Below are positions 9,661 through 32,340 of a stretch of DNA of 64,000 nt, one piece after another. The stretch comes from Rhodobacterales bacterium HKCCE3408 (GTDB taxonomy: Bacteria; Pseudomonadota; Alphaproteobacteria; Rhodobacterales; Rhodobacteraceae). A program made the translations under genes and the position numbers. Within the stretch, counting starts at the first letter, position 1; every line of letters begins with the position of its first letter. The DNA lies in the NCBI GenBank assembly GCA_015689705.1, contig WVSN01000001.1, positions 62,001 to 126,000 of the forward strand, written 5' to 3'. The notes under the pieces are model-generated. The model was not told the DNA's origin and searched no databases. It saw only the letters and a list, made by a program, of their open reading frames with translations.

Positions 9661-11046
9661 GTGAATACCCTTTCGGGGCGGTTCCTGGTCTTGACGATCA
9701 TCTTCGTGATGATCGCCGAGATTTTGATCTTCGTTCCCTCCATCGCGCGGTTCCGCGAAGACTATCTGCTGGACCGGCTGGAGCGGGCCCAGATCGCGTC
9801 GCTCGCCGTTCTCGCGGGCGATGGCATGGTCGACGAAGATCTCGAGGCCGAGCTCCTGGAAAATGCCGGTGTGCTCAACGTCGTGCTGCTGCGCGACGAG
9901 GTCCGGCAACTCATGCTGTCGGAGGCGGGGATCGCCCCGGTCTCCCATTCCTTCGATCTGCGCAATCCCTCGGCAATGCAACTGATGGCCGACGCGATCA
10001 TGCGGCTCTTTCGCCGCGATGATGGCGAAACGATCCGGGTCATCGGCAACCCGACGCGCGATGCCGGCCTGCTGATCGAGGTGACGATGCACGCCGCGCC
10101 GCTGCGCGAGGCGATGATCGACTACGGCCTGCGCATCCTCGCCCTGTCGGCGGTGATCTCCATCGTGACGGCGGCGCTTCTCTTCCTCGCGGTCCGACGC
10201 CTCATGGTCCTGCCGATCATGCGCGTTGTCGGTGCCATGATGAACTATTCCCAGGCCCCCGAGGACGGGCGCCGGATCATCGACGTCCGCGCGAATGTCC
10301 GCGAACTGCGCGAGGCAGAGACCGCGCTACAGGCGATGCAGACGCAGCTGACCTCGGCCCTGAAGCAGCGCGAACGGCTGGCCAAGCTCGGCGAGGCCGT
10401 GGCGAAGATCAGCCACGACCTGCGCAACATCCTCAACGTCGCGACATTGATGGCCGACCGCATCGAGACGTCGGAGGATCCGGCCGTGCGGCGCACCACG
10501 CCGCGTCTGCTCAGTTCGCTCTCGCGCGCGGTCAGCCTGTGCGAAAGCGCTCTGGCCTTCGGCCGCGCCGAGGAACCGCCGCCGCGCCTGACGCATGTCG
10601 ATCTGGGTGATCTTGTCTGTGACGTCGTCGAAAACGAGCGCATCGCGGCGGATGGCGCGGATGTCGACTATATCTCGGACGTGGAGCCGGGCCTCGTCGC
10701 GCGTGCCGATCCCGAACAGCTGTACCGCGTCCTCGCCAACCTCATCCGCAACGCGCGCCAGGCGATCGCGACGACGGGCCAGGCCGGGAAGGTGACCGTG
10801 ACGGCCAGCTCGGGCGAGGATTGCTGGCTGATCCGCGTCTCCGACGACGGCCCGGGGCTGCCCAAGAAGGCGATGGATCACCTGTTTCAGCCGTTTCAGG
10901 GCGGCACCCGCAAGGGCGGGTCCGGCCTCGGTCTCGTGATCGCGGCCGAGCTGGTTCGGGGCCATGGCGGAACGCTCGATCTCGAGAAATCGGGTCCGGA
11001 GGGGACGGTCTTCACGATCCGCCTGCCCGCCGGCGCGGCCGCCTGA
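9661..11046 (+). CDS. Orphan sensor histidine kinase
   Basis: The 461-residue inner-membrane kinase has TM1 (about residues 5-28), a short periplasmic domain (about 30-155), TM2 (about 158-178) and a linker. A HisKA domain with ISHDLRNIL (phospho-acceptor His252) follows, then a HATPase domain with NLIRNARQA, DDGPGLP and GGSGLGL. I chose GTG at 9661 because GGGAGGT ends 6 nt upstream; the TTG at 9658 is too close to it. It lies directly after the oxidoreductase gene, with no response regulator adjacent, so its partner is elsewhere. The signal may relate to the redox/envelope pair upstream, but this is inference. Confidence 0.87.
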   Translation: MNTLSGRFLVLTIIFVMIAEILIFVPSIARFREDYLLDRLERAQIASLAVLAGDGMVDEDLEAELLENAGVLNVVLLRDEVRQLMLSEAGIAPVSHSFDLRNPSAMQLMADAIMRLFRRDDGETIRVIGNPTRDAGLLIEVTMHAAPLREAMIDYGLRILALSAVISIVTAALLFLAVRRLMVLPIMRVVGAMMNYSQAPEDGRRIIDVRANVRELREAETALQAMQTQLTSALKQRERLAKLGEAVAKISHDLRNILNVATLMADRIETSEDPAVRRTTPRLLSSLSRAVSLCESALAFGRAEEPPPRLTHVDLGDLVCDVVENERIAADGADVDYISDVEPGLVARADPEQLYRVLANLIRNARQAIATTGQAGKVTVTASSGEDCWLIRVSDDGPGLPKKAMDHLFQPFQGGTRKGGSGLGLVIAAELVRGHGGTLDLEKSGPEGTVFTIRLPAGAAA

Positions 11047-20735: not shown

Positions 20736-21293
20736 CTAGCTGATGGCGCGGATGCCGCGGCTGACCACGGCCGCCGTGCGCCCGTCATTGATCTCGATCG
20801 GCGCATCCTCGTTCAGATGCAAGAGCTCCGCCAGCTTGCGACGGGCGCGGTTTGCGCGGCTCTTGATCGTGCCGACGGCGCAGCCGCACATCTCGGCCGC
20901 CTCTTCGCAGGAAAAGCCGCCCGCGCCGATCAGGATTAGCGCCTCGCGCTGTTCGTCCGACAGCTTCGTGAAAGCCTGCCGGAACTCCTGCAGCTGCAGG
21001 TGACCATCATGGGCCGGCTTCTCCGACAACTGAGCCGCGAACACGCCGTCAGGGTCCGCGACCTCGCGCTTCGTCTTGCGACGGTTCGAATAGTAGGTGT
21101 TGCGCAGAATCGTAAAGAGCCAGGCCCGCATTTTGGTGCCGGGCTGGAACTTGTCGAAGTTCACCCATGCCTTCTCGATCGCGTCCTGGACGAGGTCGTC
21201 CGCGCTGGCCGAGTTCCTGCACAGGCTCATGGCGAAGGCCCTGAGCGCCGGCAAGTGTTCCACGAGCTCATCTCTGGGATCATGAGCTGTCAT
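20736..21293 (-). CDS. ecfG: General stress response sigma factor EcfG
   Basis: The 185-residue ECF-type sigma factor has region 2 (LCRNSASADDLVQDAIEKAW, MRAWLFTILRNTYYSNRRK) and region 4 (LSDEQREALILIGAGGFSCEEAAEMCGCAVGTIKSRANRARRKL). The FSCEEAAE-CGCAVGTIKSR form is typical of EcfG (ECF15). It drives the alphaproteobacterial general stress response and is held inactive by NepR until phosphorylated PhyR binds NepR. It lies 7 bp downstream of nepR in one unit, which has its own EcfG-type promoter, implying positive autoregulation. Confidence 0.93.
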   Translation of the reverse strand: MTAHDPRDELVEHLPALRAFAMSLCRNSASADDLVQDAIEKAWVNFDKFQPGTKMRAWLFTILRNTYYSNRRKTKREVADPDGVFAAQLSEKPAHDGHLQLQEFRQAFTKLSDEQREALILIGAGGFSCEEAAEMCGCAVGTIKSRANRARRKLAELLHLNEDAPIEINDGRTAAVVSRGIRAIS

Positions 21294-21300
21294 TCGGGTG

Positions 21301-21513
21301 TCAGTCCCTTTCCTTGGCCGTCCGCTCGGACGGCCGTTCCCCGATCCCGCGATCCGCTTCCTGGGTATCGCGACCGGTATCCTGCTCGCGCAGCCGCGCG
21401 ATGAGGTCCCGGAATCTGTCGGGCACGTCTTCCTCCAGCGCGTCGCGGTAGATGCGCTTCAAGGCCGCTTCGATCATGGTCCGCGACGTTCTGCCTTGGT
21501 CGCCGTCGTTCAT
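21301..21513 (-). CDS. nepR: Anti-sigma factor NepR
   Basis: The 70-residue protein matches NepR in its core helix region ALKRIYRDALEEDVPDRFRDLIARLRE (about residues 17-43). Flexible, charged ends flank it. NepR binds EcfG and blocks RNA polymerase association; phospho-PhyR acts as the partner switch that removes it. It is first in the nepR-ecfG unit and divergent from phyR, the classical gene arrangement. It lies within a much longer open frame that starts near 22515, but only this part is conserved and has an ATG at 21513. A second NepR-like gene lies at 23827. Confidence 0.9.
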   Translation of the reverse strand: MNDGDQGRTSRTMIEAALKRIYRDALEEDVPDRFRDLIARLREQDTGRDTQEADRGIGERPSERTAKERD

Positions 21514-21551: not shown

Positions 21552-21577
21552 GGAACCCAACCCATCTGGCCCGCGTT
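21552..21577 (+). promoter_or_regulatory. EcfG-type promoter of phyR
   Basis: GGAACC (21552-21557), 16 bp, CGTT (21574-21577): an exact consensus match. The start would lie about 22 nt before the phyR ATG. Confidence 0.82.
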
Positions 21578-21584
21578 CGGTTCC
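21559..21584 (-). promoter_or_regulatory. EcfG-type promoter of nepR-ecfG, overlapping the phyR promoter
   Basis: On the minus strand GGAACC (21584-21579), 16 bp and GGTT (21562-21559) form a near-consensus site with one mismatch in the -10 element. It is interleaved with the divergent phyR promoter, so the two cannot be occupied at once. Confidence 0.6.
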
Positions 21585-21606: not shown

Positions 21607-22419
21607 ATGCCGACTGCCGACCCCAACGCATCCTTCGCGGACGCCGTCAGCGCCGAGCTGCCGTATCTGCGCCGCTATGCCCGTGCCCTTGCCGGAAGCC
21701 AGCCGAGTGGGGATGCCTACGCGGCGGCCACGCTCGAAGCGATCCTCGCAGATCCCGACGGCATCGACCGGTCGTTGCCGGTCCGCGTCGCGCTCTTCCG
21801 CGTGTTCCATGCCATCTGGCAATCCAGCGGGGCGCCGTCTGACGGCAAGGAAACCGGGCTGCGGGCGGCGGCGCAGAAACACCTCGCCAAGTTGACCCCG
21901 AACAGCCGAGAGGTCCTGCTCCTGTCGACTATCGAGGATTTCACATCCGCCGAGATTGCGCAAATCGTCGGCGTCGACCCGTCCGAAGCCACCGCGCTTC
22001 TCTCCACCGCCTACACGGAAATGGAGGACGCCATCTCGGGCAAGGTGATGATCATCGAGGACGAGGCGATCATCGCCATGGACCTCGAGTCGCTGGTTGC
22101 CGATGCCGGGCACAAGGTCGTCGGCGTCGCCCGAACGCGGCAGGCCGCGGTCGAACTCGGCGCGCGCGAGCGGCCCGATCTCATCCTCGCCGACATCCAG
22201 CTCGCCGACAATTCCTCGGGCATCGACGCGGCCAGCGACCTTCTCGACGCCCTTGGCGACCGGCCCGTGATCTTCATCACGGCCTTCCCCGAACGCCTGC
22301 TGACCGGCGAGCGGGCGGAGCCGACCTTCCTGATCACCAAGCCCTATTCCGAGGCCCAGGTCCGTGCCGCCGTCAGCCAGGCGATGTTCTTCGCCTCGAC
22401 CACGCCGCTCAAGGTCTGA
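21607..22419 (+). CDS. phyR: General stress response regulator PhyR
   Basis: The 270-residue protein has an N-terminal sigma-like domain (residues 1-140, resembling EcfG regions 2 and 4 but lacking DNA-binding residues) and a C-terminal receiver. The acidic pocket is E151-D152, the phospho-acceptor is D196 (LILADIQL), and T225 and K245 (FLITKPYS) complete the site. On phosphorylation the sigma-like domain sequesters NepR and frees EcfG. The ATG at 21607 gives the standard family length; the upstream frame has no conserved sequence. The HisKA_2 kinase at 24792 is the closest candidate phosphodonor. Confidence 0.95.
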   Translation: MPTADPNASFADAVSAELPYLRRYARALAGSQPSGDAYAAATLEAILADPDGIDRSLPVRVALFRVFHAIWQSSGAPSDGKETGLRAAAQKHLAKLTPNSREVLLLSTIEDFTSAEIAQIVGVDPSEATALLSTAYTEMEDAISGKVMIIEDEAIIAMDLESLVADAGHKVVGVARTRQAAVELGARERPDLILADIQLADNSSGIDAASDLLDALGDRPVIFITAFPERLLTGERAEPTFLITKPYSEAQVRAAVSQAMFFASTTPLKV

Positions 22420-22518
22420 GCCGCGGTCGTCACACGCGAGCGGCGCGTCATCCGGAGAGAGAGCGGCGGCGCAGTCTGAGTGATGCGCGTCCGATATGTG
22501 CGGGGCAGCGGTCATCGG

Positions 22519-22953
22519 CTACGTCCCGGGACCGTCTTGCGCCTTCCGCAGCGCGGACAGAAGCGCGGTGGTCGAGAAGGGGGGCGGCAGGAAGATCCAG
22601 TCCGCACCCGTGGCCGACGCCTGAGGCTCGGCAATCGCGATCACGCGCGCCCGCCGCGTTCCGAGAAGTTCGGCCAGTGCCGCGTCCCGCAATTCGGCCG
22701 ATCCGGCATCGACGATAGCTACGGCCTGCCCGAGCGGCGCCTCACGGAGCGCGTCACGGAACTGGTCCAGTGCGCTGGAAACGCAGATCCGGGCGCCCGG
22801 CAGGAACTCGTGCGCCGTCTCGGCGATGTCCTGGGCCACGATCACGTCGTGCTCCAGGATAAATACATGTGTCAGCACCTGAGTTGCGGCCGCCCCCACC
22901 CCTTGCGGAGGGAGCGTTGTCGTCACGGTGCAGTCGCGATCCGGACTAGGCAT
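22519..22953 (-). CDS. Degenerate receiver-domain protein
   Basis: The 144-residue protein has a receiver-like pattern: HVFILEHDVIVAQDIAETA (pocket E34, D36), VAIVDAGS with D82 at the phospho-site position, and FLPPPFS at the end. The invariant lysine of a receiver (normally KPF) is replaced by Pro124 and the switch Thr/Ser by Ala, so normal phosphorylation signalling is unlikely. It could be a decoy or a protein-interaction domain for the nearby kinases. It stands alone on the minus strand, between phyR and a Crp/Fnr gene that diverges from it. Confidence 0.6.
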   Translation of the reverse strand: MPSPDRDCTVTTTLPPQGVGAAATQVLTHVFILEHDVIVAQDIAETAHEFLPGARICVSSALDQFRDALREAPLGQAVAIVDAGSAELRDAALAELLGTRRARVIAIAEPQASATGADWIFLPPPFSTTALLSALRKAQDGPGT

Positions 22954-23069
22954 GCGCGCGTCCCACCCCTATTGTTGTCTCGAGGCCCTCATGGACCACC
23001 CACCGTACCTGAAACTTTTCCCGCAAGGCCGCATTAACCTATGATCCGACACCTGGATGACGGAGCGTA

Positions 23070-23798
23070 ATGCCAACCGCCTGCACATCATGCCCGCTTC
23101 GGAAAATGGATGCGTTCCAGCCGTTTAGCGATGACGAGCTGGACTTCATGCTTCGCTTTAAAGTTGGCGAACTGGTGGTCGATCCGGGCACGCCGATCCT
23201 CATGGAAGGCTCGAACGCGCCTCAGCTCTACACCGTGCTGGAAGGTCTCGGCCTGCGCTACAAGCTGCTCCCGAGCGGTGAGCGGCAGGTCCTGAATCTC
23301 ATCTTTCCGGGTGCGTTCCTCGGCCTCCAGGCCGGTGTGATGCAGCAGATGGGCCACTCGGTCGAGGCGACGACGAAGATGAAGCTCTGCGTCTTCGACC
23401 GGAAGACGTTATGGACCCTGTTCAAGAACCATCCGGAGCGCGCCTTCGATCTCACCTGGCTTGCCGCGATGCAGGAGCATTTCCTCGGAGAGTCGCTTCT
23501 GACGGTCGGCCAGCGGGACGCGCTGGCCTCCGTCGCGTGGATGTTCGTCCTCGTCGCGCAACGCGGCGAGTCGCTCGGCCTGCTCGCGGGCGGGAAGATG
23601 GACTTTCCCTACGCGCAGCAGGACCTGGCCGACGCACTTGGCTATTCGCTCGTGCATCTCAACCGTACGCTGCGTCGTCTGCGTGAACTGCAACTCGTGA
23701 CCTGGGCCGACGGGGTGGTTCATTTCCACGACATGGCGGAGCTGGCCCGCCTGGCCGACGTCCCGCTCGAGCCGATGGCGCCGCGCCCGCTGATCTAG
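23070..23798 (+). CDS. Crp/Fnr family transcriptional regulator
   Basis: The 242-residue protein has an N-terminal cyclic-nucleotide-binding-like beta roll (PILMEGSNAPQLYTVLEG, GERQVLNLIFPGAFLGL) and a C-terminal HTH_Crp domain (PYAQQDLADALGYSLVHLNRTLRRLRELQLV). A CTSC pair begins the protein, but the additional cysteines needed for an FNR-type [4Fe-4S] cluster are missing, so it is not a standard oxygen sensor. GGAG precedes the ATG by 5 nt. The short NepR-like gene follows 28 bp after its stop, so the two are probably one transcript. Confidence 0.9.
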   Translation: MPTACTSCPLRKMDAFQPFSDDELDFMLRFKVGELVVDPGTPILMEGSNAPQLYTVLEGLGLRYKLLPSGERQVLNLIFPGAFLGLQAGVMQQMGHSVEATTKMKLCVFDRKTLWTLFKNHPERAFDLTWLAAMQEHFLGESLLTVGQRDALASVAWMFVLVAQRGESLGLLAGGKMDFPYAQQDLADALGYSLVHLNRTLRRLRELQLVTWADGVVHFHDMAELARLADVPLEPMAPRPLI

Positions 23799-23826
23799 CC
23801 GCGGCCCGGGGGGAGGCTCATCGCCA

Positions 23827-24003
23827 ATGGCTTCGAGGCGTCGGACACGCGCGAGGGAAGAGATCGACCGGACACTCCGTCGCCTCTACGACGACGTCGT
23901 CGCGGAACCTGTCCCGGAGCATCTGCAACGGCTGATCGACGATCTGCGGAAGGCCGGCGCCCGACCGGCCGATCCGGCGCCGGACGAAGATACCGGGGAT
24001 TAG
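23827..24003 (+). CDS. Second NepR-family anti-sigma factor
   Basis: This 58-residue open frame encodes RRTRAREEIDRTLRRLYDDV and VAEPVPEHLQRLIDDLRKA, then an acidic tail. The core is closer to the general NepR consensus (LYDDVVxEPVPxxxxxLL) than the nepR at 21301. It should bind an EcfG-type sigma factor or PhyR. GGGGGGAGG lies about 11 nt upstream of the ATG. It follows the Crp/Fnr gene and converges with the YqaA-like gene, 16 bp apart. Its size makes it easy to miss in annotation. The family assignment rests on the conserved helix only. Confidence 0.8.
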   Translation: MASRRRTRAREEIDRTLRRLYDDVVAEPVPEHLQRLIDDLRKAGARPADPAPDEDTGD

Positions 24004-24019
24004 GCGGCACATTCCCGCG

Positions 24020-24613
24020 TCAGGCGAACTGCCAGACCGCCCAGGCCAGGAGCAGGCTCACCATGACGGCCGGCAGGACGATGTGCTTCGGTACGTCCAG
24101 ATGGGCGATCCGGTCACCGATGAACTGGGCAAGGATCGCCAGCCCGAAATAGCGCAGGCCACGGGACAGGGCGATGGCAGCAAGAAACATCGGGTAGCTG
24201 CCCTTGACCGCACCGGCGCCAAGCGTCGCGATATGCAGCGGGGCCGGCGAGATGGAGATGACGAAAACGCTCCAGAACAGGCTGCTGCCCTCGAGATCCG
24301 CGACCGCCTCGCGGTATTCGGTGGTCAGGTCGAGCGCGCGGAGAACCGGCAACACGACAGGCTCGTGCGCGACGACCCCGACGAAATAGAAGGCAGACGC
24401 ACCGACAAGGCAGCCAAGCCAGATCACCGCCGCGATCGACAATGCCCGGGGCGGATGGCCAATCATCAATGGCGCGACCAGCACCTCCAGCGGGATCGGC
24501 AGGAACGTGCTCTCGGCGAAGGAGATGGCGCCGAGACCGGTCCAGTACCGGGACAGCCGGTTCAGCCAGTCGCCGGGCTTGCCGGCGCCGGATCTCGGTG
24601 CATCTTCTGCCAT
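24020..24613 (-). CDS. YqaA/DedA-like VTT domain membrane protein
   Basis: The 197-residue protein has about five hydrophobic segments with the VTT/YqaA pattern: AESTFLPIPLEVLVAPLM (residues 34-51), an FYFVG segment and SPAPLHIATLGAGAVKG. The motif FLPIPxExLxxP is that of YqaA-like proteins of unknown function. A consensus EcfG promoter lies directly upstream, so it should be stress-induced. The predicted start is only 1-2 nt before the ATG, so either the transcript is leaderless or translation begins further in. Confidence 0.82.
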   Translation of the reverse strand: MAEDAPRSGAGKPGDWLNRLSRYWTGLGAISFAESTFLPIPLEVLVAPLMIGHPPRALSIAAVIWLGCLVGASAFYFVGVVAHEPVVLPVLRALDLTTEYREAVADLEGSSLFWSVFVISISPAPLHIATLGAGAVKGSYPMFLAAIALSRGLRYFGLAILAQFIGDRIAHLDVPKHIVLPAVMVSLLLAWAVWQFA

Positions 24614-24621
24614 GCGCTCGA

Positions 24622-24647
24622 AACGTGGCCCGGTGAGAAGCGGTTCC
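24622..24647 (-). promoter_or_regulatory. EcfG-type promoter of the YqaA-like gene
   Basis: On the minus strand GGAACC (24647-24642), 16 bp and CGTT (24625-24622) match consensus exactly. The -10 element ends 8 bp before the ATG at 24613, leaving almost no 5' untranslated region. Confidence 0.75.
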
Positions 24648-24744
24648 CCGCTGGCATGGTCGCCATGGAACCCGAGCCGGTCCGGCGCGGTTAAGTCATG
24701 CAGGAGCCGGGACCGATGCGCGGCCCGGACGCGACCTGCCGGAT

Positions 24745-24773
24745 TTGGGTCCTGACGGACGATTGGCTATGCT
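24745..24773 (+). promoter_or_regulatory. Possible sigma-70 promoter of the HisKA_2 kinase
   Basis: TTGGGT (24745-24750) and TATGCT (24768-24773) are separated by 17 bp, about 18 bp before the ATG. It contains no EcfG elements, so the kinase would be expressed constitutively. Confidence 0.4.
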
Positions 24774-24791
24774 GCGGCTCCGGCCCCGGAC

Positions 24792-26624
24792 ATGCATTTG
24801 ACCGACCGGCGGCCCGTTGACCTGAAAGGAACCTTTCACATCCAACGGCACCCGCGCGAGACTGCCGCCAATCCGGAGGCGGAACGGCCGGCCCGGCGCC
24901 GCGGAGCGGCAGCCTGGCCGCGGATGACGCTGTCTTTCCAGATCGCCCTGATGCTGACCGTGGCGCTCCTGCCGCCGGGGCTTTTCGCCATCTTCGAAAC
25001 GCTGCGGATCATCGAAGACGCCCGCGCCGCCCACAACGACAACCTCGCCGCGCAGACGGTCCGGGCGGCGAGCCCCGAAAGCGACGCGATCATCAACGCG
25101 CTCGGCATCGCCTATGGTCTCGCCGAAGCCGTCCCCGCTGTCGCCGATGCGCCGGAGCTCTGCACTGCGACAATGGAGCGGCTCGTCGCCGATCATCCCA
25201 TCGTCACGGTCGCCGCCTTCATCGACACGACGCGCACGTCGAGCTGCAACAGTACCGGCGGGCCACTCGACCTGACCGGAGATCGCGACGTCGTCCGCGC
25301 CTTCTCCGAGCCGGGTCCTGCGGTGATCTTCAGCCCGGCCAACGACGAGTCCGGCACCACCGTCAACGTGATGGAGCCCGTCCGCGCTGCTGACGGTGCG
25401 ACCATGGGCTTCGTATCGCTGTCTTTCGCGCCGACCCCGGTCGAGGAAGTGCGTGCGTTCGCGGGCGTCGACGATGCCGTTACGCTGATCACCTTCAACG
25501 CCCATGGCGAGATCCTGACCGCGGACATGCCACGGAACGAGGCCCGCGCCCTCTTGCCCGCCGGTATCCCGCTGTCGCAGCTCGCCACCAGTACTGTCCG
25601 CCAGTTCACCGCCCGCGACAACGAGGGCCGGGAACGCGATTTCACGCTCGTGCCGATCGTTGCCGACAACGCCTATGCGCTTGGCAGTTGGGAGACCTTC
25701 CGTCCGCTCCGGTCCGGTGAGTGGCCCGCGCTCGGCGCGCTGATCTTTCCCGGCGTCATGTGGATCGCGAGCCTCCTCGTCGCCATGATCGCGCTCCGGC
25801 AGCTTGTCGTGCATCCGGTCCACATGCTCGGCACGCGGATGCGGAACTTCGCCGCCAATCGCAGCATTCCGGGGCCGGGGCCGACCGAAATCGCCTCGCG
25901 CGAGATCGTCGAGATCGTCGAGACCTTCGACATGGTCGCGACGGAGGTGATCGAGTCCGAGGCCAAGCTCGAGGACCAGTTGCGTGAACGCGACGTGCTG
26001 CTGCGCGAACTGCATCACAGGGTGAAGAACAACCTTCAGCTCATGTCCTCGATCATCAACATGCAGATGCGCCAGCGGCCCGGCGACCGTGCGATGGAGG
26101 AGCTGCGACGCGTCCAGATGCGTCTTGCCACGCTGGCGCGGTTCTACACCGACTTCCTGTCCTCGTCCTCGATGTCGCGCCTGCGCGCCGACCACCTGAT
26201 GGAAGAGATCGCGCGCCACGTCCTGACCATGAGCGCCCAACCGGAAACCCCGGTCGATCTCGACCTCGACCTCGACCCGGTCGACCTCGTTCCCGAACAG
26301 GCCAGTCCGCTCGCAATGCTGGCGACCGAGGCGATGACCAATGCCGTGTCCTACGCCGACGCGCCGCCGGGTGAACGCGTCGCGGTCGGGATGACGCTGC
26401 GATCCGAGACCGGGCCGGACGGCGAGACGGTGGTGCTCACGATCGAGAACACCGTTCACGGCGAACCGCCCACGACGGCCGAGGTCGGGCTCGGCCAGCG
26501 CCTGATCGCGGCGTTCGCGGCGCAATTGTCGGCCGAGATGTCGAGCCACCTCGACAAGGACCGCTACGTGGTCGACATCCGGTTCGCGCGGATGACCGAG
26601 GTTGCGACGGAAGGCGGAACCTGA
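24792..26624 (+). CDS. Sensor histidine kinase, HisKA_2 type (candidate PhyR kinase)
   Basis: The 610-residue inner-membrane kinase has TM1 (about residues 49-68), a periplasmic sensor domain (about 70-315), TM2 (about 316-337), a HAMP-like/coiled linker and a HisKA_2 domain with LRELHHRVKNNLQLM (phospho-acceptor about His409), followed by an HATPase_c domain. Kinases with this HRVKNNLQ box commonly feed PhyR in alphaproteobacteria. An ATG at 24924 (MTLSFQIAL) would drop 44 basic residues and start just before TM1. Its location beside the phyR-nepR-ecfG locus supports a role as stress sensor. Confidence 0.88.
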   Translation: MHLTDRRPVDLKGTFHIQRHPRETAANPEAERPARRRGAAAWPRMTLSFQIALMLTVALLPPGLFAIFETLRIIEDARAAHNDNLAAQTVRAASPESDAIINALGIAYGLAEAVPAVADAPELCTATMERLVADHPIVTVAAFIDTTRTSSCNSTGGPLDLTGDRDVVRAFSEPGPAVIFSPANDESGTTVNVMEPVRAADGATMGFVSLSFAPTPVEEVRAFAGVDDAVTLITFNAHGEILTADMPRNEARALLPAGIPLSQLATSTVRQFTARDNEGRERDFTLVPIVADNAYALGSWETFRPLRSGEWPALGALIFPGVMWIASLLVAMIALRQLVVHPVHMLGTRMRNFAANRSIPGPGPTEIASREIVEIVETFDMVATEVIESEAKLEDQLRERDVLLRELHHRVKNNLQLMSSIINMQMRQRPGDRAMEELRRVQMRLATLARFYTDFLSSSSMSRLRADHLMEEIARHVLTMSAQPETPVDLDLDLDPVDLVPEQASPLAMLATEAMTNAVSYADAPPGERVAVGMTLRSETGPDGETVVLTIENTVHGEPPTTAEVGLGQRLIAAFAAQLSAEMSSHLDKDRYVVDIRFARMTEVATEGGT

Positions 26625-26662: not shown

Positions 26663-28237
26663 GTGGCCGACATGACCGACGAAACGGACGACACAGACCT
26701 CTCCACCGGACCAGCCGGCCTGCGTGTGCTCATCACCGCCGGCGAGGCCTATCCCGAGATGGAACGCGCGTTCCTCGCCGCCGAGCGTGAGATCTGGGCG
26801 AGCTTTCGTGTCTTCGATCTCTCGACACGGCTGAGAAGCCAGGAGGGGCGCGAGATCGGCGAGACATGGTTCGATCTCGTGGTGCACCTCCTCGAGCGCG
26901 GCATCGCGCTGCACGTCGCGCTCTCCGATTTCGACCCGATCATGGTGCCGAACCTGCACTGCATGTCCTGGCAGGCGCGGCGAGCCTTCATCGCGGCGGG
27001 CGAGATCGCCGGGCCGGGCGCGAAGCTCGATCTGGCCAATGCGGTCCATTCGGTGCGCGTCGGCTATCTCCCGCGCCTCCTGCTCTGGCCGATGATCGTG
27101 AAACGCATCGCGGGCAGGGCGCGGCATCTGAATGCGCAGACCGCTTCGGAACGGGCGCTGACGCTTCGGTGCAGCCCGGGGCTGAGACCATGGCTCAAGG
27201 AGAAACCGGGGGGCACTCTGGTCGCCCGCAAATGGCCCCCGCCGCCGCTATTGCCGGGGACGCACCACCAGAAGATCGCGGTGGTCGACCGGGACCTCCT
27301 GCTGATCGGCGGTCTCGACCTGAACGAAAGGCGCTACGACGACAAGACGCACCGCCGCCCCGCCAGCGAGACATGGAGTGACGTTCAGCTTGTCTGCCGG
27401 GGCGCGATCGCGCTCGACGCGCAGCGCCATCTCGAATCCTTCCTGCCCGCCGTCGCCGGCCGGATCGATCCGCCCGATACAGGCCGCATCCTGCGCACCC
27501 TGTCGCGCCGCCGGCGATTCCAGGTACCGTTCATAGGGCCACGCCCGCTGCGCGACGAACTGGCCGAGGCGCATCTGCGGCTGCTGGGCGAGGTAAGGCA
27601 TCACATCTACCTCGAAACGCAGTTCTTCCGCGACCGGAGGCTTGCCGATGCGCTGGCAAAGGCCGCCGAAACGCAACCCGGTCTCGGCCTGACGATGGTG
27701 CTGCCCGGCGCGCCTGAGGACGTTGCCTTCGACGGCGCGCAGTCGTCTGACGCCCGGTTCGGCGAATACCTGCAGGCCGAATGCCTCGACCGGGTATGCG
27801 CCGCCTTTGGCGACCGCGCGGTGATCTCCTCCCCGGTGGTTCCGGAACGGGCGCCCGGGACGGGGCGCGACACGCTCTGCGGCTCGCCCATCATCTACGT
27901 CCATTCGAAGGTCTCGATCTTCGACGACCGGCGGGCGATCGTCTCCTCGGCCAATCTCAACGCGCGCAGCCTGCGATGGGACACCGAAGCCGGGATTGTC
28001 CTGGGTGAGGAAGACGTGCCCGGCCTGCGCCGTCGCGTCTTCGGGCACTGGTTCGGCAAAGATGGTGTCGGCGCTGTGGGCGAGCCCGAAAACGCGGTCG
28101 ATGCTTGGCGCAGGATCGTCGAAGAAAATGGCACAGCGGCCCCGGAAGATCGGACCGGATATCTCGTTCCGCATGACCGGCGCCCGGCCCGCGCCTTCGG
28201 CCGTCCGATGCCATTCCTGCCGGATGCGATGGTCTGA
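26663..28237 (+). CDS. Phospholipase D family protein
   Basis: The protein (524 residues from GTG 26663; 521 if ATG 26672 is used) carries the two HKD motifs that form one active site: HHQKIAVVDRDLLLIGGLDLN (about residues 201-221) and HSKVSIFDDRRAIVSSANLN (about 414-433). It would cleave or transfer phosphodiester head groups, for instance as a phospholipase D or cardiolipin-synthase-like enzyme. No signal peptide is visible; cytoplasmic membrane association is possible. It follows the kinase with a possible EcfG promoter, suggesting stress-linked membrane remodelling. Confidence 0.87.
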   Translation: MADMTDETDDTDLSTGPAGLRVLITAGEAYPEMERAFLAAEREIWASFRVFDLSTRLRSQEGREIGETWFDLVVHLLERGIALHVALSDFDPIMVPNLHCMSWQARRAFIAAGEIAGPGAKLDLANAVHSVRVGYLPRLLLWPMIVKRIAGRARHLNAQTASERALTLRCSPGLRPWLKEKPGGTLVARKWPPPPLLPGTHHQKIAVVDRDLLLIGGLDLNERRYDDKTHRRPASETWSDVQLVCRGAIALDAQRHLESFLPAVAGRIDPPDTGRILRTLSRRRRFQVPFIGPRPLRDELAEAHLRLLGEVRHHIYLETQFFRDRRLADALAKAAETQPGLGLTMVLPGAPEDVAFDGAQSSDARFGEYLQAECLDRVCAAFGDRAVISSPVVPERAPGTGRDTLCGSPIIYVHSKVSIFDDRRAIVSSANLNARSLRWDTEAGIVLGEEDVPGLRRRVFGHWFGKDGVGAVGEPENAVDAWRRIVEENGTAAPEDRTGYLVPHDRRPARAFGRPMPFLPDAMV

Positions 28238-28389: not shown

Positions 28390-31300
28390 GTGGTCGCGAG
28401 GTCCTCTGCGAAGGGGTGGTATGAGCCGGTGAGCGAGGACGGAACGGGCGAGGTGGGGCTGCTCGGCATCGTGGGGATCGGTGCCTCGGCCGGCGGGCTG
28501 GAAGCGCTCTCCGACTTTGTCGAGGCGATCCCGGCCCGCTCGGGTCTCTGCTTCGTTATCGTCCAGCACCTCGCGCCCGACCACCCGTCGATCATGGATC
28601 GGCTCCTGTCCGAACGGACCGACCTGCCCGTGGTCCGGATCGAGGAGGGGATGGCCGCGCAGCCGGACTGCATCTTCGTCATTCCGCCCGGCCCGTCACT
28701 GACGGTTTCGGACGGCGTGTTCCACCTCGAGCCGCGCGACACGCGGCCCGGCATCCGGACGCCGATCGACCGGTTCTTCACCTCGCTGGCCGAGGATATG
28801 GGCGAAGAGGCGGCCTGCGTGGTGCTGTCCGGGACGGGCAGCGACGGCACCAACGGTCTCCGGGCGATCAAGGCGCGCGGCGGTCTCGCCATCGTCCAGG
28901 ACAGCGACTCGGCGCGCTTCGCCGGCATGCCTGAAAGCGCCTTCGCCACCGGCGTCGTCGATTTCGTCCTGAAGCCATCGCGGATCGCGCCGTGTCTCGT
29001 CGAGGTCATCCGCCACCGCCATCATCTCGAAGTCGTGGATGGCGGCCAGAACCTCCGCTCGAACGTCTCCGAGCGGCTGCCGGAGATCATCGGCATTCTC
29101 GCCGCCGAGACCGGCCACGATTTCGGCGCCTACAAGGAGGGCACGCTTCTGCGCCGGCTGGAACGGCGGATGATCATCCTGCGCATGTCCGACGTGGAAG
29201 AACTGGTCGAGAAGCTGCGGACCGACGAGACCGAGCGGACGCGGCTTCTGCAGGACTTCCTGATCGGAGTGACCCAGTTCTTCCGTGACGAGGCCGTCTT
29301 CGACACGATCGCCGACGAGATCATCCCGGAACTGCTCGACCGGTCCCAGAGCGGCTTCCGGATCTGGGTGCCCGGCTGTTCGACCGGCGAGGAGGCCTAT
29401 TCCCTTGCCATCCTGTTCCAGGAGCGGATGCGGGCCGAGAACGATCATCGCCCGCTTCAGGTCTTCGGAACCGATGTCGATCTCGCTGCGCTCCGTCTCG
29501 CCCGGGCCGGCCGCTACGCTCCGAGCGCACTGGCCGGGATGCCGTCCGACCTGATCGAGCGGCATTTCCTGGCCGAGGAAGGCCATTACACGGTCAAGCC
29601 GAGCCTGCGGGAATCGGTGATCTTCGCACCGCACAACCTGCTGAGCGATCCGCCGTTTTCGCGCATCGACCTCGTGTCCTGCCGGAACCTTCTGATCTAT
29701 CTGACGCAGGACGGGCAGCGTAACGTGGTCTCCCGTTTCCACTATTCGCTGAGAAACTCCGGCGTGCTGCTGCTCGGCCCGTCCGAAACCATCGGGGCGC
29801 ACGAGGACTATTTCAGCGTCATCTCCCGCCAGCACCGCCTGTTCCGGCGCGACAACAGCAAGTCGATGGGCTACTCGGCGCTCACGGCCCAGACCAGAGG
29901 ATCGTCCGGTTTCGGCACCCGCGACCCGGGTGCGCCCGCCATGCCCATTGCGAAGCCGCGCCCGGATGCAAATGGCCCTTCGGTCGAGGAAGCGGCGGAC
30001 CAGTTCTACCTTTCCCGCTTCTCGCCCCCCTATCTGGTGATCGATGCGAACAACCGGGTGCTCTACGTGTCCGCCAATGCGGGCGGTCTGATCTCCCCCG
30101 GCAAGGGCGAACTGAGCGCCGATATCGAGTCGATCCTCGCCCGTGACCTTCGCGCGCCGGCGCGGCGCCTCTTGTCGACCCTGCGCGACGGGGCCGGCTC
30201 GGCCTCCGAGACCGGGATCGTGGTTGGCGGCGAGGACAAGCCGCGCATCGTCGATCTGTCCGCCGCGCAGCTGCCGGGCGAAACCGGGCAGATCATGCTG
30301 GCGATCCAGCCCGTCCGGCTGGAAAGCGGGCAGGAGCCCGCGCTGCCGCTGCCTTCTACCGACACCGACACCAATGCCACCGCGGCACGCGAACTGGAGC
30401 TGACCCGCCGCACCCTGGCCACGACCCAGGCCGATTTCGATCTTGCCGAACAGGAACTGCGCAGCGCCAACGAAGAGCTCTGGTCGATGAACGAGGAACT
30501 GCAGAGTTCGAACGAGGAACTGGAGACCTCGCGCGAGGAGCTGCAGTCCATCAACGAGGAATTGGAGACCATCAATTCCGAGCTGAAGGAGAACAACCGG
30601 CAACTCAACGTCGCCAATGCCGACCTGCGGAACTTCCTCGAAAGCACCGACATTCCGACGATCATCCTCGGCGACGGGCTGAAGCTCAGGCGGTACACCC
30701 GCGCGGCCCGCAAGCTGTTCAGCGTCGACGAGCGCGACATCGGCCGCCCGATCACCGACCTGTCCTGGAAGGTCGACTATCCCGAGATCGCCGACGACGT
30801 CGCCTCGGTGCAGGAGTCGCTGCAGGTGATCGAGCGCGTGGTCCAGAACCCCGAGACAGGGGCGCGGTTCGTGACCCGCGTGCGCCCCTATCGCGGCGTC
30901 GACGACCGGCTTCAGGGCAGCGTCATTACCTTCGTCGACGATACCGAGCGCCTTGCGGCATCGCTCCGTCTCGAGCTGAGCGAACGGCGTCTCGCGGCCG
31001 CCGTCACCGCAGGCGAACTCGGCATTTACGAATACGATCCGACCACCGGCAGGCTCGACCTCGATCCGAGGTGCCGGCAGATCTGGGGGATCGCGGATGA
31101 GGGCCCGGTCGGCCTCGAGACGCTCGAGGACGCGTTCGAGCGCGAGGAGGACTGGATCCGCTTTCGTGACAAGCTCGACCCTGCCGGGACCGCGAGTGTC
31201 GGCAATCGCATGCACGACGAGTACCGGATCGCGCATGTCGGGTCCGGAGCGCCGGTCTGGATCCGCGACGACAGCGACATCTGGGTTCAGGACGACGGAT

Positions 31301-32340
31301 CGCGTCGCGTGATCGGGACGATGCGCGACGTCACCGCGCAGAAGACCATGACCGAGGAGATCCGCGCCACCGCCGCCCGGCTGGAGCTGACCTACGAGGC
31401 GACCGGGATCGCGGCCTACGAATGGGATGCCACCCGCGACGAGTCGAAATGGACGCCGAACATGTATGCGCTGCTTGGCTGCGCGACCGACCGGCCCCCG
31501 TCGCTGGCGCTCATGACCGAGTTCATCCTGCCCGAGGATCGCGAGAAGGTGCAGCAGATCGTGGATGCGGCGCTGTCCTCGAACGAGCTGATCGAGACAG
31601 AGTTCCGCATCCGACGCGGCACGGACGGCGCGATCCGCACCCTCGCAGGCAAGGGGCGCGGCATCTACGACGAGCGCGGCCGCCCGGTCGGCATGATCGG
31701 CATCAACTTCGACCGGACCGAGGAGGTCGCCGAAGAAGAATACCGCCGCCTGCTCACCAACGAGCTGAACCACCGGGTCAAGAACTCGCTGGCCACGATC
31801 CAGTCGATCGCGCAGCAATCGCTACGCACGGCCGGCAGCCTCGACCAGTTCCGCGAGAAATTCATGGGCCGTCTCCAGGCCATCTCGCGCGCCCACGACA
31901 TCCTGGTCAACGGCGCGCGCGAAGAGGCGACGATTCAGGAACTCGTCATTGCGCAGGTCGCGCCCTATGCCGGCGAAGGCGCGCAACGGCTCTCGACCTC
32001 CGGCCCGGCGATCACGCTTGGCGCAGCATCGGCACACGCGATCGGCCTCGTGCTGCACGAACTGGCCACCAACGCCGCCAAGTACGGCGCGCTCGGCAGC
32101 GAGGGCGGGCGGGTATCCATCTCCTGGTCCGAGACCAATCTCGACGGGCAGGCGGGCCTGCGCCTCGTCTGGACGGAATCAGGCGGCCCGCCGGTCTCTG
32201 AGCCGGAGGACACCGGCTTCGGCACCCGTCTGATCAAGACTTCGCTGTCCCTGTCCCTTGGCGGTGAGGCGCAGATACGCTACGACCCGTCCGGTCTGAT
32301 CGCGGAAATCACCTGCTACCAGAGGACGGAAGATGACTGA
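28390..32340 (+). CDS. CheB-CheR-PAS-HWE hybrid chemotaxis methyl-transfer/histidine kinase
   Basis: The 1316-residue cytoplasmic protein joins four parts. A CheB methylesterase domain (residues 22-210) has catalytic S33 (GASAGG), H60 (QHL) and D151 (GTGSDG). A CheR methyltransferase domain (about 225-490) has CSTGEEAYSLAIL and SRIDLVSCRNLLIYL. A long coiled coil (about 670-740) rich in NEELQS repeats leads to PAS domains (about 745-1110). An HWE kinase with ELNHRVKNSLATIQS (His1128) and VWTESGG ends the protein. The receiver gene overlaps its stop by 8 bp. The start is uncertain: GTG 28390 is the longest, and a GTG at 28430 is also possible. Confidence 0.9.
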   Translation: MVARSSAKGWYEPVSEDGTGEVGLLGIVGIGASAGGLEALSDFVEAIPARSGLCFVIVQHLAPDHPSIMDRLLSERTDLPVVRIEEGMAAQPDCIFVIPPGPSLTVSDGVFHLEPRDTRPGIRTPIDRFFTSLAEDMGEEAACVVLSGTGSDGTNGLRAIKARGGLAIVQDSDSARFAGMPESAFATGVVDFVLKPSRIAPCLVEVIRHRHHLEVVDGGQNLRSNVSERLPEIIGILAAETGHDFGAYKEGTLLRRLERRMIILRMSDVEELVEKLRTDETERTRLLQDFLIGVTQFFRDEAVFDTIADEIIPELLDRSQSGFRIWVPGCSTGEEAYSLAILFQERMRAENDHRPLQVFGTDVDLAALRLARAGRYAPSALAGMPSDLIERHFLAEEGHYTVKPSLRESVIFAPHNLLSDPPFSRIDLVSCRNLLIYLTQDGQRNVVSRFHYSLRNSGVLLLGPSETIGAHEDYFSVISRQHRLFRRDNSKSMGYSALTAQTRGSSGFGTRDPGAPAMPIAKPRPDANGPSVEEAADQFYLSRFSPPYLVIDANNRVLYVSANAGGLISPGKGELSADIESILARDLRAPARRLLSTLRDGAGSASETGIVVGGEDKPRIVDLSAAQLPGETGQIMLAIQPVRLESGQEPALPLPSTDTDTNATAARELELTRRTLATTQADFDLAEQELRSANEELWSMNEELQSSNEELETSREELQSINEELETINSELKENNRQLNVANADLRNFLESTDIPTIILGDGLKLRRYTRAARKLFSVDERDIGRPITDLSWKVDYPEIADDVASVQESLQVIERVVQNPETGARFVTRVRPYRGVDDRLQGSVITFVDDTERLAASLRLELSERRLAAAVTAGELGIYEYDPTTGRLDLDPRCRQIWGIADEGPVGLETLEDAFEREEDWIRFRDKLDPAGTASVGNRMHDEYRIAHVGSGAPVWIRDDSDIWVQDDGSRRVIGTMRDVTAQKTMTEEIRATAARLELTYEATGIAAYEWDATRDESKWTPNMYALLGCATDRPPSLALMTEFILPEDREKVQQIVDAALSSNELIETEFRIRRGTDGAIRTLAGKGRGIYDERGRPVGMIGINFDRTEEVAEEEYRRLLTNELNHRVKNSLATIQSIAQQSLRTAGSLDQFREKFMGRLQAISRAHDILVNGAREEATIQELVIAQVAPYAGEGAQRLSTSGPAITLGAASAHAIGLVLHELATNAAKYGALGSEGGRVSISWSETNLDGQAGLRLVWTESGGPPVSEPEDTGFGTRLIKTSLSLSLGGEAQIRYDPSGLIAEITCYQRTEDD

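Follow-up and report, generated by a model that had tools for sequence, protein, structure and literature searches.

A second NepR-family gene directly behind a Crp/Fnr regulator gene in a Rhodobacteraceae stress locus

NepR is a small protein that holds the bacterial general stress response off. The role of extra NepR copies is a standing question in the alphaproteobacterial stress response, and it is raised here by a 64,000-nucleotide stretch of a Rhodobacteraceae genome (the window), in which a short second nepR-like gene, nepR2, follows a gene for a Crp/Fnr-family regulator. What might such a protein do, and does its position tie it to the regulator in front of it? Second NepRs are known from Sphingomonas, Methylobacterium and Sinorhizobium; the new part is the placement behind crp. 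The locus is arranged as follows, in map order along the forward strand:

20736-21293, minus strand: ecfG; no other convincing EcfG was found in the genome
21301-21513, minus strand: cognate nepR, 70 aa from the ATG at 21513 or 58 aa from 21477; 41.3 bits on PF18557
21552-21584: overlapping divergent EcfG-type promoters, for phyR on the plus strand (21552-21577) and for nepR-ecfG on the minus strand (21559-21584)
21607-22419, plus strand: phyR, for an anti-sigma-factor antagonist of 270 aa, the likely partner of NepR2
22519-22953, minus strand: degenerate receiver-like protein, divergent from crp; named by eye, without a Pfam match
23011-23035, plus strand: candidate weak EcfG-type promoter upstream of crp, GAAAC-N16-CATT
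23070-23798, plus strand: crp, Crp/Fnr-family regulator, 242 aa, with PF00027 and PF13545 above cut-off; upstream gene of the presumed crp-nepR2 operon
23827-24003, plus strand: nepR2, 58 codons with an ATG start, a NepR-family protein of 58 aa with the NepR domain at residues 10-43
24020-24613, minus strand: VTT-domain-like protein, convergent with nepR2; 26.9 bits, below the cut-off of 33.9
24622-24647, minus strand: EcfG-type site of the VTT-like gene
24792-26624, plus strand: histidine kinase (HWE/HisKA_2), neighbour on the downstream side; EcfG-type site at 24667-24692
26663-28237, plus strand: ORF downstream of the kinase, presumably PLD, with a counterpart in the same place in a relative (G159)

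A 1316-codon ORF near the stress locus (28390-32340, plus strand) resembles, by eye, a fusion of a CheB/CheR-type protein with a histidine kinase.

The nepR2 frame and its product

The 58-codon frame described for nepR2 is present, and its translation includes the helix LRRLYDDVVAEPVPEHLQRLIDDL that had drawn attention to it. A GGAGG lies 10 nt ahead of the ATG, and the coding log-odds peak in this frame, by a modest margin (0.255 per codon versus at most 0.146 for the other five frames). As the preliminary description claimed, the gene adjoins the Crp/Fnr gene: it starts 28 bp after the crp stop codon on the same strand, with phyR 1.4 kb and ecfG 2.5 kb upstream. A terminator scan of 22400-24850 returned no site. 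Spacing and strand make co-transcription of crp and nepR2 likely.

On the Pfam NepR profile (PF18557, cut-off 25.7 bits), NepR2 scores 43.0 bits with an E value of 3.3e-11, in a match that spans profile positions 1-34 of 35. A six-frame search of the whole 3.9-Mb genome gives exactly two matches above the cut-off, nepR2 (42.6 bits) and the cognate nepR (41.7 bits), so the second NepR-family gene proposed from the letters alone is real. The further claim that it matches NepR better than the cognate does stands on the Pfam profile, by only 1-3 bits (43.0 versus 40.4 or 41.3, by the cognate start chosen), and fails on a profile built from 30 Rhodobacteraceae NepRs, where NepR2 reaches 31.9 bits and the cognate 50.3. 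NepR2 reads PEHL where 26 of these 30 NepRs read PDRF. From these sequence comparisons, NepR2 is a divergent NepR paralogue. Neither protein reaches the NCBIfam NepR equivalog NF051865 (NepR2, 24 bits against a cut-off of 100; the cognate, no match at E≤1), and the model is narrow, since even the cognate is without a match.

A search of PDB sequences at E≤10 returned a single match for NepR2, the NepR chain 3t0y_B (E 0.018), from an entry that we take to be the complex of NepR with PhyR. The two sequences align as LRRLYDDVVAEPVPEHL (NepR2) and LRQMFDEVVNEPVPDEF (3t0y_B). Placed by eye on the LRxxY motif, L17, R18, Y21 and L33 of NepR2 correspond to L32, R33, Y36 and M48 of Sphingomonas melonis NepR; the key contact residues are kept, and the position of M48 is filled by the hydrophobic L33. 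In S. melonis, alanine changes of the L or Y of this motif weakened both NepR and NepR2, and changing the R (both proteins) or the M (NepR2) left activity undiminished, according to the part of PMC6599016 used here.

A NepR motif pattern, composed after the family had been seen, matches twice in the window (nepR2 and cognate nepR), 51 times in 87 related loci and not at all in the loci reversed. NepR2 is without a close relative: among the other 112 distinct NepR-like domains in the comparison, the best is that of locus L121, with 49% identity over the domain. This L121 protein reads PDHL and its gene directly precedes an ecfG. PEHL-type NepRs also directly precede ecfG in two loci (L078 and L146), and PEHL is therefore not a marker of a stand-alone or PhyR-only paralogue.

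The genome encodes two NepRs above the Pfam cut-off, a single PhyR and one convincing EcfG. NepR2 is the NepR beyond the cognate, without an ecfG of its own. The observation that only one ecfG is seen is borne out genome-wide as far as searched: the nearest other sigma factor, an ECF factor on contig C33, is 38% identical to EcfG. Its region 2 scores 29.5 bits on PhyR_sigma2, weakly above the cut-off of 27; its neighbours are, by eye, EF-hand-like and Rieske-like ORFs, and contig C33 has no NepR or PhyR matches. The suggestion that nepR2 might serve another EcfG elsewhere is not supported, as the genome search found no convincing second EcfG that could be its target.

The Crp/Fnr gene and its upstream region

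Homologues of the window's Crp protein at E≤1e-55 occur in 107 of 394 genomes of the family (393 genera, drawn from a larger group), and the flanks of crp were examined in all of these except G027. Named relatives, among them Roseobacter, Sulfitobacter, Roseovarius and Jannaschia, point to Rhodobacteraceae as the family of the window. In 81 loci the sequence extends for 3.5 kb or more to both sides of crp; phyR or ecfG lies within 3.5 kb in 53 of them, and neither does in 28. The crp homologue is a frequent member of the Rhodobacteraceae stress locus. The open-licence papers yielded one mention of such a gene, in Rhodobacter sphaeroides, where a Crp-Fnr gene was noted downstream of phyR (PMC5830050).

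A sensitive profile places a divergent, degenerate receiver gene in front of crp in 45 of the 106 examined loci (E<1e-5; three are the profile's own members), and on the other strand in none of them. A specific link between this receiver gene and nepR2 was rejected on that frequency. The encoded protein may be a partner of crp or PhyR in signalling.

C5, C8 and C107 of the Crp protein are kept in 55 of 57 aligned rows (the other two are empty, and some organisms appear twice). A three-cysteine redox or Fe-S site is possible, and the conservation of these residues makes a redox input conceivable. The homologue presumably has no counterpart of FNR's third N-terminal cysteine, and it falls far below the cut-off of the NCBIfam FnrL model (63.6 versus 300 bits).

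The window contains 12 matches to GGAAC-N15-18-SGTT against 2.69 expected. Sites of this strict form precede nepR, phyR, the VTT-like gene and the kinase; crp and nepR2 have none upstream. The upstream region of crp has a sequence of its own. Of 95 such regions, 90 are distinct, and 81 of these 90 contain a motif resembling GCATTAAACTNTGACATAG (at least 12 of 18 positions), against 2 of 90 reversed regions; the window's copy, with exactly 12 of 18, is just at the threshold. The motif (window 23011-23050) exceeds an EcfG -10 box in length, with a further part downstream.

GGAAC precedes CATT by exactly 16 nt in 41 of 81 crp upstream regions and by 17 or 18 nt in four, and is absent in 36. The window's GAAAC-N16-CATT (23011-23035) has one mismatch to this family form. 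As reported in the part of PMC7083833 consulted, EcfG holoenzymes of Sphingopyxis are active in vitro on a promoter whose -10 box is CATT, and GCAAC is among the two most frequent -35 boxes there, with AAC nearly invariant. This precedent, together with the GGAAC-N16-CATT sites, makes crp a probable target of EcfG in many relatives. At the -35 position of crp, two relatives with a crp-linked NepR or NepR-like ORF read GCAAC (G277) and GCAGC (G159). The consensus -35 box is missing upstream of crp in these two and in the window, which is suggestive, although three cases prove nothing. The survey as a whole shows the Crp/Fnr gene to be a frequent component of the Rhodobacteraceae stress locus, in many cases accompanied by an EcfG-type promoter and the degenerate receiver gene.

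Crp-linked NepRs in relatives

A NepR lies within 500 bp downstream of crp in three of the 103 loci that reach that far (the window, G277 and G038). The remaining three of the 106 crp loci reach less than 500 bp downstream; one is that of G136, and on another copy of the locus in that genome (L094) no NepR is present in 1.5 kb downstream. Extending the distance to 1 kb adds G159, giving four of 106 genomes, and a profile survey found no further NepRs within 1 kb downstream of crp.

In G277, the second NepR is encoded on the same strand, 79 bp behind crp, on a contig other than that of the core locus. Its complement is like that of the window genome, and the question of what an extra NepR does is clean to test in both because each combines a single PhyR and a single convincing EcfG with two NepRs. 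In G038, the crp-linked NepR is on the opposite strand and convergent. The crp stretches of G277 and G038 gave no match to the PhyR, EcfG, kinase and PLD queries from the window.

The locus of G159 shares the window's gene order of ecfG, nepR, phyR, receiver gene and crp, followed by the kinase and PLD ORF, and is without the VTT-like gene. Its nepR2 slot holds a divergent NepR-like ORF with GGAAC-N16-CGTT upstream; this ORF is below the reach of Pfam, with no Pfam match, and the gap in which it sits includes a run of N.

In the window's genus, the one further genome encodes just one NepR, and conservation of crp-nepR2 within the genus was not found. The second of the two genomes of G277's genus has one match to the G277 NepR2 query, versus two in G277, and among the five genomes of G038's genus only G038 has two matches, so neither genus offers a clear further instance. 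The crp-linked second NepR is rare, and its distribution suggests patchy gain and loss. A common origin of these NepRs is unsupported because the cognate NepR of G277 has as its nearest relative the crp-linked copy in the same genome (60%).

Extra or unusual NepRs were also seen elsewhere among the related loci. In L149 (G285:C19), a NepR is followed directly by an HWE kinase and a PLD ORF, with no ecfG in between; another contig of this genome (C14) has EcfG-like matches and another NepR. L082 (G136:C12) encodes a second NepR on the minus strand (9914-10081) with NepR2's PVPEHLQRLI stretch, at 24.7 bits just under the Pfam cut-off; a second EcfG-like gene is about 4 kb away. L080 (G135, 9909-10163) and L145 (G305) have NepR ORFs that contain a tandem pair of NepR-like motifs in the same frame.

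A predicted brake on the stress response

The reading that we prefer, at a probability of about one half (0.52), is that nepR2 is transcribed together with crp and translated into a second NepR, which serves as an additional brake on the general stress response. NepR2 would occupy the NepR-binding groove of phosphorylated PhyR and may bind EcfG too. With the groove taken, the cognate NepR would be freed or backed up and would hold EcfG. A brake on PhyR is the simplest account since the genome has one PhyR and one convincing EcfG. The brake would probably be raised by the response itself, as negative feedback, because crp often has an EcfG-type promoter, present in the window in weakened form; its level may possibly be tuned by the signal that the Crp/Fnr protein senses. 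Family membership, genome content, gene spacing, the promoter-like element and the NepRs close to the 3' end of crp in three other genomes are observed; joint transcription with crp, binding to PhyR, the brake itself and its feedback control are the steps that we infer. In favour of this reading are the L and Y kept in the LRxxY motif, the 28-bp gap with a ribosome site and no terminator site, the G277 and G159 loci, and the precedents of S. melonis NepR2 and M. extorquens META2p0735, PhyR-binding proteins that damp the response. Against it are the one mismatch in the -35 box upstream of crp, the motif copy just at the threshold, the patchy distribution, the distance of NepR2 from its best relative, the missing Pfam match of the G159 ORF and the PEHL-type NepRs directly ahead of ecfG.

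The preliminary description held that co-transcription with crp would link the stress response to a metabolic signal. This idea is supported in part. The Crp homologue is frequent in the stress locus (53 of 81) and has its own EcfG-type promoter in many relatives, so transcription with crp could equally place NepR2 under stress feedback.

NepR2 could instead be a genuine anti-sigma factor in its own right, binding EcfG directly and redundant with nepR, like RsiA1/RsiA2 of Sinorhizobium meliloti, an alternative we find somewhat unlikely but worth keeping in view. In its favour, the NepR pattern is kept over nearly the whole domain; the PEHL NepRs of L078 and L146 and the best relative, the PDHL protein of L121, directly precede ecfG, and there is one convincing EcfG in the genome for it to bind. 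In the section of PMC4814048 used here, both S. meliloti NepRs bind the sigma factor and both PhyRs. The prevalence of PDRF (26 of 30 profile NepRs) and the 18 bits by which NepR2 trails the cognate on that profile argue against it, as do paralogues in other genera. None of the three from Methylobacterium extorquens bound any EcfG in a two-hybrid assay, and two co-precipitated PhyR (PMC4814048); NepR2 of S. melonis bound PhyR and lowered the response, and its EcfG-binding assay was inconclusive (PMC6599016).

Full nepR-ecfG-kinase cassettes downstream of crp in L212, L186 and L173 raise the other main alternative, that nepR2 is the functionless, decaying relic of such a second cassette from which ecfG was lost. 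The kinase and PLD ORF that come after nepR2 in the window, and the patchy occurrence of second NepRs, would agree with this. The intact ORF, with its ribosome site and the best coding frame, makes decay quite unlikely, as does the same-order locus of G159, where the NepR-like ORF has a consensus EcfG-type promoter of its own. Control of a different sigma factor, the C33 ECF factor for example, is very improbable: the weak PhyR_sigma2 score (29.5 versus 27 bits) is offset by the lack of NepR or PhyR matches on that contig, and G277 has a crp-linked NepR and no third PhyR_sigma2 match. Least credible is a chance ORF that resembles NepR. The frame is short and GC-rich, with an antisense frame at 0.146 against its 0.255, but chance was rejected on the Pfam E value of 3.3e-11, the count of just two matches above cut-off genome-wide and the absence of pattern matches in reversed loci.

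Extending the PhyR brake to other lineages, crp-nepR2 could be an add-on module, gained in several Rhodobacteraceae lineages (four of 106 genomes), that connects PhyR to a Crp/Fnr protein responsive to redox or a metabolite, an idea we regard as doubtful and put forward tentatively. If true, EcfG feedback and metabolic state would jointly set the stress-response brake. In the open-licence literature, we found such wiring of a metabolic or redox Crp/Fnr brake onto PhyR described for no stress locus.

Known paralogue systems offer several comparisons, each drawn from part of the source cited. NepR2 of S. melonis Fr1 is likewise a second NepR in the stress locus with an LRxx(Y/F) motif, and the negative feedback through PhyR proposed for it is what we propose here (PMC6599016). 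Its gene adjoins ecfG and belongs to the EcfG regulon, with a stress induction slightly under the authors' cut-off (PMC6599016), whereas nepR2 in the window follows a Crp/Fnr gene with a degenerate candidate promoter. We also liken NepR2 to MexAM1_META2p0735 and META1p1275 of M. extorquens AM1, the two paralogues that co-precipitated PhyR; META2p0735 is stress-induced via EcfG/PhyR, and its overexpression lowers stress resistance (PMC4814048). That strain has six EcfG paralogues, and the part of PMC4814048 used here mentions no Crp/Fnr link, whereas the window genome has one convincing EcfG.

S. meliloti, with RsiA1 and RsiA2, has two NepRs per genome, as here; there, both proteins bind the sigma factor and both PhyRs (PMC4814048). 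The R. sphaeroides locus RSP_1271-1274 is like the window in having a kinase, ecfG and a nepR-like gene opposite phyR, with Crp-Fnr downstream of phyR, but one NepR-like gene is described there, in the part of PMC5830050 consulted, versus two here. In Rubellimicrobium thermophilum (GSR/GSR'), stress-response components are duplicated, as in the window genome, but the two PhyRs, two EcfGs and one NepR reported in PMC12148442 are the reverse of the imbalance seen here.
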